Positions 31,209-43,505 of a DNA stretch of 43,605 bases are shown one piece after another; position 1 is the stretch's first letter, and each line of letters begins with the position of its first letter. This DNA is from Bacillota bacterium (GTDB taxonomy: Bacteria > Bacillota > Dethiobacteria > DTU022 > UBA8154). The notes beneath the pieces are model-generated. The model saw only the letters and a program-made list of their open reading frames with translations. It was not told the origin of the DNA and ran no database searches. The position numbers were made by a program, and so were the translations under genes. The stretch is from contig JAAYFF010000063.1 in assembly GCA_012728375.1 (NCBI GenBank), forward strand, positions 1 to 43,605, written 5' to 3'.

Positions 31209-31853
31209 ATGAAAAGCACTGAGGTGTTTATTTCCAGCAGCGGCCCGGCCTTGGAAGCGCGCCTGGATCTTCCGGATTTGCCTCCGCCTTTTCCGGGGGT
31301 GCTCATTTGTCACCCACACCCCCTTTATGGAGGAAATATGAACAATAATGTAGTTATAGGCGTGGGGAATTGTTTGGTAAAAAAAGGTTTTGCTGTTTTG
31401 CGTTTTAATTTTCGGGGAGTGGGCAGGAGCGAGGGAACATTTGACGAAGGCAACGGTGAACAGGATGATGCCCGCGCCTGTCTCAAATTCCTTCTGGAAA
31501 GGGAAGAGATTGATCCCGAAAGGATAGGGCTTGTGGGGTACTCCTTCGGAGGAATGATAGCTCTATCTGTGGGCGTGCGGGAAGACGCTGTCAGGGTAAT
31601 GGCGGGAATATCCCCGATTATGCCCAAGGATATATTGAAGGGATGCAACAAGCCAAAGATAATTTTCAGCGGGACGGAGGATAACATGGTTCCTTCGAGG
31701 CTGATTTTGCAGGAAACGAAAAAAGCCGGGGAACATACGGAAATCAAGGTTATCGACGATGCCGACCACTTTTGGTGGGGCTATGAAAGACAGCTGGGAG
31801 AAATGGTAGCCGCTTTTTTTGCAGATAATTTTAGCAATGCCGGAGAACAATAA
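31209..31853 (+). CDS. Alpha/beta hydrolase (dienelactone-type/UPF0227-like)
   Basis: A 214-residue serine hydrolase fold with C-H-P-H-P-L-Y-G-G-N-M (oxyanion region), N-F-R-G-V-G-R-S-E-G, the nucleophile elbow G-Y-S-F-G-G (Ser), an acid near G-T-E-D and the catalytic His in D-A-D-H-F-W. These small hydrolases act on esters or peptides in the cytoplasm; the substrate cannot be told. TGGAGG lies about ten bases before the ATG. It stands alone between the tRNAs and the repeat element. Confidence 0.85.
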   Translation: MKSTEVFISSSGPALEARLDLPDLPPPFPGVLICHPHPLYGGNMNNNVVIGVGNCLVKKGFAVLRFNFRGVGRSEGTFDEGNGEQDDARACLKFLLEREEIDPERIGLVGYSFGGMIALSVGVREDAVRVMAGISPIMPKDILKGCNKPKIIFSGTEDNMVPSRLILQETKKAGEHTEIKVIDDADHFWWGYERQLGEMVAAFFADNFSNAGEQ

Positions 31854-31869
31854 GACAAAAGAACGTCTT

Positions 31870-32076
31870 TATTCTGCTGCATTAAACAAAATTTGCTTTG
31901 AGTCGTGAGCTGCAAAAACAGCCCATGAAGACGTAATAATTTTGAAGCAAAAATGGCAGGATGCCATTTTTAGGGCCACTGAACAGGACGTTCAATTGGC
32001 CCGTGCGAAAAATTGTGAGTCAAATGGTTGCTGTTTTCAGCGAACGCTTTGCAAATAGAGTTTATGCAGTAGAATA
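31870..32076 (+). repeat. Structured repeat element, copy A
   Basis: About 205 bases are repeated at 41276-41482 (about ten differences by eye). The ends pair: TTCTGCTGCATTAAAC (31872-31887) with GTTTATGCAGTAGAA (32060-32074). Inside, ATTTGC (31891-31896) pairs with GCAAAT (32051-32056). Four hairpins fold between: 31903-31928; 31949-31971 with loop AGGAT on a nine-base stem; 31973-32002 with loop AGGAC; and 32027-32045 with loop TTTT. There is no coding frame of note. It ends seven bases before the M20 peptidase ribosome site, so it lies in that gene's leader if transcribed. Confidence 0.8.
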
Positions 32077-32099
32077 AGCCTTAAGGAGGTAGACAATAT

Positions 32100-33383
32100 T
32101 TGAACCCGGAGCAAATTCTCTCCGATTTGATCAGGATAAATACGGTAAATCCCCCGGGAAACGAGATGGAGGCCGCGCTTTATCTGAAAGATCTTTTTGC
32201 GCGGGCAGGTGTGCCCGGTGAAATAGTGGAAACGGGAAAAGGCCGGGGAAATTTTTTCGCCAGAACGGGAAGCGGTTCAAAACGTCTTCTTTTTCTTTCC
32301 CATCTCGATGTGGTCCCTGTAGGAGAAGGATGGGATTTTGATCCTTTCTCGGGAGAAATACGGGAAGGAATGGTTTTGGGACGGGGAGCGCTGGATTGTA
32401 AAGGATTGGTTGCCGCCCAGGCCTTTACTTTTTTAAAACTTGTTCGTGAAAAAGTACCCTTAAACGGCACCCTGATTTTTGCTGCAACTGCTGATGAGGA
32501 AAGAGGTGGGGACTTTGGTGTGAAAAGCCTGCTGGATGATGTCCCTGAGAAACTTCAGGCTGACTTTGCCATAAACGAAGGAGGGGAGGAACCCCTTAAA
32601 TTAAACGGCAGGACGGTGTTTTTTATCCAGATCGGGGAAAAGGGTACCGCCTGGAGCAAATTGACCGCGTCTGGTGTCTCCTGCCATGGCTCAATCCCTT
32701 CGCTGGGAGATAATGCGGTTGTAAAAATGGTCCGCGCCCTCAATAACCTGGCCGGCTGCCGGCCGCAGGTTACCTTAATCCCGGAGGTTAAATATATGCT
32801 CCAGGAGCTTACCGGAATTTTGGGGCTGAATATTAATGTGGATGAGCAAAACGTGGATTCCATTCTGGAAAATTTTAAAAACAGGACTTTTGTGGAGACC
32901 TTGCGGGCCATGACGCGCATGACCATTTCCCCCAATGTGGTGCAGGGGGGAAGCAAGACCAATGTTGTTCCCGATATGTGTACCGCGAGCATCGATATAC
33001 GCATACTGCCGGGGCAGGACAAGGAATACGTACTACGGGAGCTCCGCAGGTATATCGGGGAAAAAATTAATATCGAAGTGACAAACTATTATCCGCCTAC
33101 TTTTTCTTCTTCCCAATCGGAGCATTACCGGGCTATTGTAGAAGCAACCCGGGATGTTGCCGGCACGGAAGCAATCTGCCTTCCATGCATCTCCACCGGG
33201 GCAACTGATTCCCGTTTTCTCCGGGAAGCGGGGATTCCTTCCTACGGTATCGGCCTTATGGCCGAGGGATTTGACCGGGAGCTCTTAACTACTGTTCACG
33301 GTAAAAATGAGAGGATAGACGTGGCGAGCCTGCATTTTATCGCATTTTTTCTCGAAAGACTGGCCATAAAGTACCTGTCCTAG
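32100..33383 (+). CDS. M20-family metallopeptidase (ArgE/DapE/peptidase type)
   Basis: A 427-residue di-zinc hydrolase with the M20 pattern: S-H-L-D-V-V-P (first metal His and Asp), G-R-G-A-L-D-C-K-G (bridging Asp), A-D-E-E-R-G-G (catalytic Glu and metal Glu), N-E-G-G, and a late T-T-V-H-G-K-N-E metal His. A lid domain lies between about residues 185 and 300. It removes N-acyl or N-terminal residues from amino acids or peptides; the exact substrate is uncertain (succinyl-diaminopimelate desuccinylase is one option). TTG is the start, with AAGGAGG nine bases upstream. Confidence 0.88.
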   Translation: MNPEQILSDLIRINTVNPPGNEMEAALYLKDLFARAGVPGEIVETGKGRGNFFARTGSGSKRLLFLSHLDVVPVGEGWDFDPFSGEIREGMVLGRGALDCKGLVAAQAFTFLKLVREKVPLNGTLIFAATADEERGGDFGVKSLLDDVPEKLQADFAINEGGEEPLKLNGRTVFFIQIGEKGTAWSKLTASGVSCHGSIPSLGDNAVVKMVRALNNLAGCRPQVTLIPEVKYMLQELTGILGLNINVDEQNVDSILENFKNRTFVETLRAMTRMTISPNVVQGGSKTNVVPDMCTASIDIRILPGQDKEYVLRELRRYIGEKINIEVTNYYPPTFSSSQSEHYRAIVEATRDVAGTEAICLPCISTGATDSRFLREAGIPSYGIGLMAEGFDRELLTTVHGKNERIDVASLHFIAFFLERLAIKYLS

Positions 33384-40379: not shown

Positions 40380-40427
40380 TACTTTTGGTTTCGCGGGGAG
40401 TTCCGGCGAGCAAAGGAGGAATTGAAT

Positions 40428-41255
40428 TTGCACCGCTTATTGTATAAAGATCTAGTTGCCCGTGCGTTGGCGGAGGATCTCGGTTTTGGGGATGTGACCA
40501 CCGGTAGCATCTTTGGCCCTGAAGAGGGGGAAGCTGTTATTGTAGCCAAGGGAAAAGGTGTTTTAGCCGGTTTAATGGTAGCCGAGGAGGTTTTTGCCCA
40601 GATTGACGGACAGATAAAATTTTTAAATTTTTTCCAGGACGGTGAAATGGTTAATCCCGGCGATCGCGTCGCCGGCCTGAAAGGGCCTGTTTCGGGAATC
40701 CTCATGGGCGAGCGGGTAGCCCTCAATTTTTTGCAGCGAATGTCCGGAATTGCCACCGCAACAAGGGAGGCTGTCGAGAGCATCAGCCATACCGGGGCAA
40801 AAATTACCGATACGCGCAAAACATCTCCCGGCCTGCGTATTTTAGAAAAATATGCCGTACGCATTGGCGGGGGGGTGAACCATCGCTTTAACCTTGCAGA
40901 TATGGTGCTCATTAAGGATAATCATATTAAAGGCGCGGGTTCTATCTCCGAGGCTGTTGCCCGGGTCAGGCAAAACTGTGGTTTCCCGGTTAAGATCGAG
41001 GTCGAGGCGGCAACCCTTGAGCATGTCAGGGAGGCATTGGTATGCGGCGTGGATATCATTATGCTCGATAATATGACCACAGACCAGATGGCTGAGGCTG
41101 TCAAACTGGTTGCAGGAAAAGTTCAGGTTGAAGCTTCCGGAGGTATTACCAAGGAAAGACTGGCCGAAGTAGCTTCTACCGGAGTAGATTTAATTTCCCT
41201 CGGGTATTTGACCACTGCAGGGCATGCGCTGGATTTATCATTACAGCTATATTAG
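40428..41255 (+). CDS. nadC: Nicotinate-nucleotide pyrophosphorylase (carboxylating)
   Basis: NadC forms nicotinate mononucleotide from quinolinate and PRPP. The hallmarks are E-D-L-G-F-G-D-V-T-T near the start, D-T-R-K-T-S-P-G-L-R, G-G-G-V-N-H-R and E-V-E-A-A-T-L-E. TTG 40422 is two bases from GGAGG and TTG 40428 eight, so the latter is preferred. It completes the nadABC operon. Confidence 0.94.
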   Translation: MHRLLYKDLVARALAEDLGFGDVTTGSIFGPEEGEAVIVAKGKGVLAGLMVAEEVFAQIDGQIKFLNFFQDGEMVNPGDRVAGLKGPVSGILMGERVALNFLQRMSGIATATREAVESISHTGAKITDTRKTSPGLRILEKYAVRIGGGVNHRFNLADMVLIKDNHIKGAGSISEAVARVRQNCGFPVKIEVEAATLEHVREALVCGVDIIMLDNMTTDQMAEAVKLVAGKVQVEASGGITKERLAEVASTGVDLISLGYLTTAGHALDLSLQLY

Positions 41256-41275
41256 TGATTCCACTGCATAAATTA

Positions 41276-41482
41276 TGTTCTGCTGCATAAAACGACATTT
41301 GCTTTGAGTCGTGAGCTGCAAAAACAGCCCATGAAGACGTAACAATTTTGAAGCAAAAATGGCAGGATGCCATTTTTAGGGCCACTGAACAGGACGTTCA
41401 ATTGGCCCGTGCGAAAATTGTAAGTCGAATGGTTGCTGTTTTCAGCGAACACTTTGCAAATGGAGTTTATGCAGTAAAATCA
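41276..41482 (+). repeat. Structured repeat element, copy B
   Basis: This is the second copy of the 31870-32076 element, in the same orientation, with its core unchanged over long stretches (GGGCCACTGAACAGGACGTT and the AGGAT hairpin arms). The paired ends are TTCTGCTGCATAAAAC (41278-41293) and GTTTATGCAGTAAAA (41465-41479). ACTGCATAAATT at 41263-41274 directly before it resembles the element's terminal arm, perhaps a remnant end. It lies between nadC and the T-box promoter. Confidence 0.8.
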
Positions 41483-41528: not shown

Positions 41529-41548
41529 TAATTTTAATCAGTATAAAT

Positions 41549-41795
41549 CGATGAGGGGAAGAGTAGTCTGCAGCAGCTTTTTGAAAGAGAGTTGCTGGTT
41601 GGTGCAAGGCAGCAGGTTCTGCAGGTGAAAGCCGTCCCCGAGAGGGCGATTGAAAAGACTAAAGTAAATCGCCACGGTTGCTTACCGTTATGGGAAGCTT
41701 GCAATTTATAAACGAGGCGGATTCAGCAGCACTGGCTGGATCAATTAGGGTGGTACCGCGGGAAATTCCCCGTCCCTTTGAGGACGGGTTTTTTT
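41549..41795 (+). promoter_or_regulatory. T-box leader riboswitch with terminator
   Basis: The T-box core AGGGTGGTACCGCG is at 41747-41760. Stem I starts at GAGGGGAAGAGTAG (41553-41566), with the AGTA part of the specifier-loop turn; GGGGA pairs with TCCCC and CTGCAG with CTGCAG beyond it. The terminator is CCCGTCC (41769-41775) / GGACGGG (41782-41788) plus seven T. The specifier codon is not certain: GTGAAAGCC between the helices allows AGC (Ser) by the GAA-codon rule, with AAG or GCC as alternatives. Uncharged tRNA would permit transcription of the Lrp and aminotransferase genes. Confidence 0.9.
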
Positions 41796-41820: not shown

Positions 41821-42318
41821 TTGGTGGATGACCGTAAAATTAAGCTTTTGCAGGCTTTGGAGTATAATCATAGAATTAGCGTCAGCACTTTGGCAACGAT
41901 GTTAAACCTGACGGAAAAAGAAGTTAACGACCTTATCAAGGAAATGGAGGATGTCAAGATTATCCAGGGGTATGTTACCTTGATCGATTGGGAAAAAGCA
42001 GGCCATAACAATAATGTGACAGCGCTTATCGATGTCAAAATAACTCCCCAGCGCGATGTGGGATTTGATGTCATCGCAGAAAGAATCTGCCGTTTCCCGG
42101 AAGTAACAAGTGTTTACCTTATGTCGGGAGGATACGATCTGTCGGTGATGGTAGAGGGGACATCCCTGAAGCAGGTGGCCTTCTTTGTGTCGGAAAAACT
42201 TGCTATCATGGAAAACGTCCAGAGCACGGCCACACACTTTGTGTTAAAAAAATATAAACAAAACGGTATAGTTTTCAATGATGATAAAAAGGATCACAGG
42301 CTGGTGATAACCCCATGA
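41821..42318 (+). CDS. Lrp/AsnC-family transcription regulator
   Basis: An N-terminal AsnC-type helix-turn-helix (residues ~5-55: K-L-L-Q-A-L-E-Y-N-H-R, L-A-T-M-L-N-L-T-E-K-E-V-N-D-L-I) precedes a RAM/AsnC ligand-binding domain (about 70-145, with M-S-G-G-Y-D-L-S-V-M-V-E-G). Lrp-type proteins sense an amino acid and control its metabolism. A TTG start lies six bases after GGGGGG, with GTG 41824 as an alternative. The T-box precedes it and the aminotransferase overlaps its end by four bases. Confidence 0.88.
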   Translation: MVDDRKIKLLQALEYNHRISVSTLATMLNLTEKEVNDLIKEMEDVKIIQGYVTLIDWEKAGHNNNVTALIDVKITPQRDVGFDVIAERICRFPEVTSVYLMSGGYDLSVMVEGTSLKQVAFFVSEKLAIMENVQSTATHFVLKKYKQNGIVFNDDKKDHRLVITP

Positions 42319-43505
42319 CCAGGTTCGTTAATAAGAAAATTGCACAGATGCCTTACTCCGGTATAAGGAAATTCTTTGACCTGGCCGGCGGTATGAAGGG
42401 GGTTATCTCCCTGGGCGTGGGGGAACCGGATTTTATAACACCCTGGCATATTTGCGAAGCCGGTATTTATTCCCTGGAAAAGGGTTATACGAACTATACC
42501 TCCAATTGTGGTTTGGAAGAACTGCGAAGAGAAATAAGCCGCTACCTCTTGAGGAGATATGGGCTACATTATGATTATGTAAACGAGATCGTTGTAACCG
42601 TTGGTGCCAGCGAAGCCATTGATATTGCCCTGCGGTGCGTCCTTGAACCTGGTGATGAAGTTATTATACCGGAACCTTGTTTTGTTTCTTACAAGCCTTG
42701 CGCGGCTATGGCCGGAGGAGTTGTAAAAACAATCGCTACCAGGGAAAGCGACTCTTTTAAGTTAAGGCCGGAAGACCTGGAAAAGGCTATAACGCCAAGG
42801 AGCAAGGTATTGCTGCTATGCTATCCCAATAATCCGACAGGTGCCGTTATGACCGAAAAGGAACTGCAGTCCATTGCGGAAGTAGCAGCAAAATATGACT
42901 TGCTGGTCATAGCAGATGAAATTTATTCTGAACTGACTTATGAAGGGGAACACGTTTCTTTTGCTTCTTTGCCCGGAATGAAGGAACGCACGGTCCTGAT
43001 CAACGGTTTTTCCAAGTCGTTTGCCATGACGGGATGGAGGATAGGTTATGCAGCTGCCCCCGCGGAAATTGCTGCTGCCATGTTAAAAATACACCAGTAT
43101 ACAGTTATGTGTGCCCCCATAATGGGGCAGATGGCCGCGATTGAGGCACTAAAAAACGGGGAAGGGGAAATAAAGAAAATGGTCCTCCTTTATAACCAGC
43201 GGCGCAGTTTAATCGTCAACGGGTTAAACAGGGCAGGGCTTCCCTGTTTTGAGCCAAAGGGCGCTTTTTATGCCTTTCCTTCAATTAAGGCAACAGGGAT
43301 GAGTTCCCAGGAATTTTGCGAAAAGCTGCTGAAAGAGGAAAAGGTTGCCGTTGTTCCCGGAGACGCTTTCGGCGAATGCGGGGAAGGGTATATTCGCTGT
43401 TCTTATGCCGCTTCCACGGAGCAAATTGTCGAAGCCCTGAGCAGAATAGAAAAATTTGTTGAACGCCACGCCAAAAGACAAAGAGCTGTTTATGCCGTTC
43501 GATAG
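42315..43505 (+). CDS. Class I/II pyridoxal-phosphate aminotransferase
   Basis: A 396-residue fold-type I aminotransferase. Seen: G-V-G-E-P-D-F near residue 35, Y-P-N-N-P-T-G in the middle, A-D-E-I-Y, and the PLP lysine in S-K-S-F-A-M-T-G-W-R-I-G-Y. Members transfer amino groups between Asp/Ala/aromatic or other amino acids and 2-oxoacids; the substrate cannot be chosen. It overlaps the Lrp gene by ATGA and is under the T-box. Confidence 0.9.
   Translation: MTRFVNKKIAQMPYSGIRKFFDLAGGMKGVISLGVGEPDFITPWHICEAGIYSLEKGYTNYTSNCGLEELRREISRYLLRRYGLHYDYVNEIVVTVGASEAIDIALRCVLEPGDEVIIPEPCFVSYKPCAAMAGGVVKTIATRESDSFKLRPEDLEKAITPRSKVLLLCYPNNPTGAVMTEKELQSIAEVAAKYDLLVIADEIYSELTYEGEHVSFASLPGMKERTVLINGFSKSFAMTGWRIGYAAAPAEIAAAMLKIHQYTVMCAPIMGQMAAIEALKNGEGEIKKMVLLYNQRRSLIVNGLNRAGLPCFEPKGAFYAFPSIKATGMSSQEFCEKLLKEEKVAVVPGDAFGECGEGYIRCSYAASTEQIVEALSRIEKFVERHAKRQRAVYAVR

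Follow-up and report, generated by a model that had tools for sequence, protein, structure and literature searches.

Two copies of a strongly folded repeat in the window, which is the whole 43,605-nt stretch of Bacillota DNA that was analysed, are best explained as a MITE of an IS1182-like element, with a probability of about 0.93. The MITE is about 225 bp long, codes for nothing, is palindromic and belongs to the non-autonomous transposons. The evidence consists of common ends, target duplications, a locus that is empty in relatives, copies inserted in both orientations and derivatives that lack the centre. A conspicuous structured repeat is now explained as a mobile element and tied to its likely driver, an IS on contig 82 of the same genome, and the assignment guards against a false listing as regulatory RNA. 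The coordinates of the features are collected in Table 1.

Table 1. Positions of the repeat copies, their ends and loops, and the csrA genes (positions in the window unless a contig is given)
Feature	Position	Strand	Remarks
MITE copy A	31871..32077	+	207 bp; without outer left inverted repeat
MITE copy B	41257..41481	+	225 bp; outer left repeat present
Inner (duplicated) left inverted repeat, copy A	31871..31886	+	
Right terminal inverted repeat, copy A	32061..32076	-	
Outer left terminal inverted repeat, copy B	41257..41272	+	GATTCCACTGCATAAA; same letters as both ends of the contig-82 IS
Right terminal inverted repeat, copy B	41466..41481	-	2 mismatches
First GGA, copy A	31959..31961	+	3-nt loop on 10-bp stem in best fold
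AGGAC five-base loop, copy A	31985..31989	+	letters invariant in 7/7 full copies
csrA paralogues, this genome (G000)	C40:75636-75794, C23:4342-4491, C23:5588-5734		

Copies, ends and insertion sites

Copies A and B are 95 % identical and lie 9,406 bp apart, in agreement with an earlier note on this DNA that had put them at about 95 % and about 9.4 kb. That note had counted two copies only; the pair is real, but the whole-genome search returned nine matches (copies or pieces), three of them full length, twice on contig 19 and once on contig 40, and the remaining matches were fragments or deletion derivatives. Four further matches were found in G002, a relative of the same genus, and four in G015, of the same family, while the rest of the relatives, in a set of 60, gave none. 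When genome_contigs was scanned for a conserved 22-mer, this turned up in three contigs, each belonging to a Bacillota metagenome-assembled genome, and phages, plasmids and viral contigs held no match to the element. The copies are dispersed and have no transposase gene inside. With the neighbouring genes called by a simple longest-ORF rule, four full copies (A, B and those on C95 and C19 of G015) were in sense orientation to their neighbours, and the other three of the seven (contig 40, C32 of G015 and C141 of G002) were antisense.

The left end of the MITE is doubled, with an outer repeat (GATTCCACTGCATAAATTATG) and an inner one (TTCTGCTGCATAAAACGA), and copy B is longer than copy A because the outer repeat was kept in B and lost on the left in A. 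The contig-40 copy (L053 637-907) has a further outer repeat, its third, added in tandem at one end and comparable to the left-end duplication of IS1272L.

Target duplications were read outside the GATTC...GAATC ends. Exact 6-bp duplications flanked the contig-82 IS (AAAAAT), a 65-bp derivative on contig 73 (AAAGAT), a derivative of about 83 bp on contig 86 (AATAAT) and one full MITE copy in G015 (ATTATA). A second G015 copy was flanked by a 7-bp duplication (ATAGTAT), and the contig-40 copy and one other G015 copy by duplications matching at 5/6 positions; at random positions a 6/6 match occurred with a frequency of 0.0003 and a 5/6 match with one of 0.005. No exact target duplication was found at copies A and B, nor at the G002 copy. 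The 65-bp derivative (L056 1959-2023) is a very small mobile form that keeps the doubled left end, and since it moved without the centre, the hairpins in the centre that bear GGA are not needed for movement.

Copy A is flanked by the genes of an alpha/beta-hydrolase (31209-31853) and of an M20 peptidase (32100-33383). The locus is empty in G001 and G002, both of the same genus, where the matches to these two genes are 50-71 bp apart. Copy B begins immediately 3' of the stop codon of nadC (40422-41255), and homology with G001 breaks off where nadC ends and starts again right behind the element, the two flanks lying apart in G001. On its other side copy B is followed by a T-box leader at 41542-41780 (Rfam RF00230, 136.7 bits), which lies upstream of a Lrp/AsnC-type regulator gene (41821-42318) and of the aminotransferase gene (42315-43505) behind it.

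The IS on contig 82

An exact match to the end sequence TTTATGCAGTNGAATCA is present at five places; two of these are on contig 82, 1.95 kb apart and facing each other. They bound an IS of 1,945 bp, both ends of which are the same 16 bp as the MITE ends (GATTCCACTGCATAAA). The suggestion of a mobile, MITE-like repeat, made from the letters of the window alone, was right, and this IS is the likely driver. Just past the 16 bases, the right end of the MITE is also similar to that end of the IS at which the transposase gene stops. The IS codes for a 545-aa DDE transposase with Pfam matches to DDE_Tnp_1_6 and DDE_Tnp_1 above cut-off. Its best NCBIfam match is IS1182 (NF033551) at 128.6 bits, and because this is below the equivalog cut-off of 270 the transposase is called IS1182-like only. 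A transposase fragment in G003, 58 % identical, adjoins nearly the same 16 bases (GATTTCACTGCATAAA). At E <= 1e-60 the contig-82 transposase was not found in G002 or G015, which both carry the MITE and are both draft genomes.

The shared ends point to the contig-82 transposase as the enzyme that probably moves the MITE. It would recognise the 16-bp inverted ends and act in trans. The MITE itself, most likely a parasite, sits between genes, and about 6 bp of the target are often duplicated at the insertion. Copy A probably lies inside a transcribed unit, where its long double-stranded RNA would be a passive passenger in read-through transcripts and possibly a substrate of RNase III. No intrinsic terminator was found over copy A.

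The closest system is IS1272 of Staphylococcus, a member of the IS1182 family with 1,945 bp, 16-bp inverted repeats and a 548-aa transposase, in some copies of which the left end is duplicated in tandem (PMC5678879). The IS described here likewise has 1,945 bp, 16-bp repeats and a transposase of 545 aa, and its MITE has a doubled left end. It differs from the IS1182 family in that the transposase scores below the NCBIfam cut-off, and from IS1272 in that the latter reportedly takes the place of stem-loops and leaves no target duplication, whereas exact 6-bp duplications were found here. The analysis contributes an IS1182-like element whose 6-bp target duplications are clear, along with MITEs that have a doubled left end, and this bears on the stem-loop replacement reported for IS1272.

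Folding and the RNA alternatives

Copy A folds at -88.2 kcal/mol compared with a mean of -51.3 for shuffled sequences (z -8.2), and is thus as heavily folded as had been claimed. The structure does not consist of four separate hairpins, as the earlier note had it for the interior; the reverse strand folds almost equally well (z -7.3), and the element is therefore a single long and imperfect palindrome of the DNA, which its ends close, and not specific to an RNA strand. A LexA box was considered for the sequence GAAC-N5-GTTC, which is present, and rejected, as the spacing is 5 and that of the Gram-positive box is N4.

The strength of the fold is also what would be expected of a cis-acting structured RNA, or another non-coding RNA, whose fold is kept by selection. 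In the alignment of the seven full copies, 6 of 71 pairs were changed on both sides, compared with 2.5 in shuffles (3 of 500 reached six) and 0-1 in slid controls, although the number of such events, in three lineages, is small. RNAalifold gave no net covariation support (term +1.03). If selection acted on the RNA strand, G.U changes should outnumber A.C changes, and among the pairs common to the folds of both strands there was no clear excess (10 pairs versus 8). Together with the nearly equal fold of the other strand and the relatives that lack the element at the copy A locus, this makes a selected RNA structure very improbable. The earlier note could name no known RNA family for the element, and in the Rfam search no family reached the gathering threshold, below which there were chance hits only.

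A more specific proposal was that the element is a CsrA decoy or leader, with two GGA loops that titrate CsrA or recruit it to the mRNA of the M20 peptidase. The genome has three csrA genes and fliW, as the proposal needed; three csrA paralogues are also present in each of two relatives of the same genus. The two GGA start at 31959 and 31986, the predicted 27 bases apart, which is within the 10-63 nt that a CsrA dimer can bridge (PMC7652899), and ACAGGACGU is, as had been noticed, one base off the core of the SELEX consensus RUACARGGAUGU (PMC7652899). The AGGAC letters do not vary among the full copies, and a Shine-Dalgarno-like sequence follows closely on the end of copy A. Of the two five-base loops claimed, AGGAC was recovered, but AGGAT was not, since in the best fold of copy A the A and U on either side of the GGA are paired and leave a loop of three bases on a 10-bp stem; SELEX ligands mostly had no more than four contiguous pairs (PMC7652899). 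This first GGA is changed in one G015 copy, and in the predicted fold of another neither GGA loop remains. Read-through RNA from the three antisense copies would show UCC and not GGA, although A and B have the sense orientation. About 3 % of random 205-nt segments have two GGA loops, conservation across genera is no higher in the centre than in the outer arms (about 0.86 versus 0.83), and csrA was not found in G015, a genome that is 87 % complete and whose congener has one.

Control through CsrA is very unlikely, and the decoy or leader reading is not supported, given the mixed orientation, the near strand-symmetric fold, a first GGA that is not in all copies and substitutions without an RNA-strand bias. 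Binding of CsrA by a single sense copy such as A could still occur, and nothing found favours it. It is less likely still that the element, as it moves, spreads a CsrA-binding double hairpin over the genome, in which case each sense insertion between genes would put a new gene under CsrA control. Known CsrA/RsmA-binding RNAs likewise have GGA in hairpin loops, but the element here is a mobile, long palindrome with one clear GGA loop and inserts in both orientations.

Other small elements and the centre of the MITE

The MITE resembles Correia/NEMIS of Neisseria and QMITE2 of Coxiella in being short, non-coding and intergenic, in forming a strong hairpin when transcribed and in being moved, as we suppose here, by an IS in trans. 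It differs from them in its ends and its low copy number, and cutting by RNase III, which is reported for Correia RNA (PMC10969869), is a supposition for the element described here.

Among the three full copies in this genome the centre (31930-32010 and 41336-41415 in the window, and the corresponding part of the contig-40 copy) is nearly identical, at 0.97-0.98 compared with 0.87-0.93 in the outer arms. Perhaps this homogeneous centre results from gene conversion.
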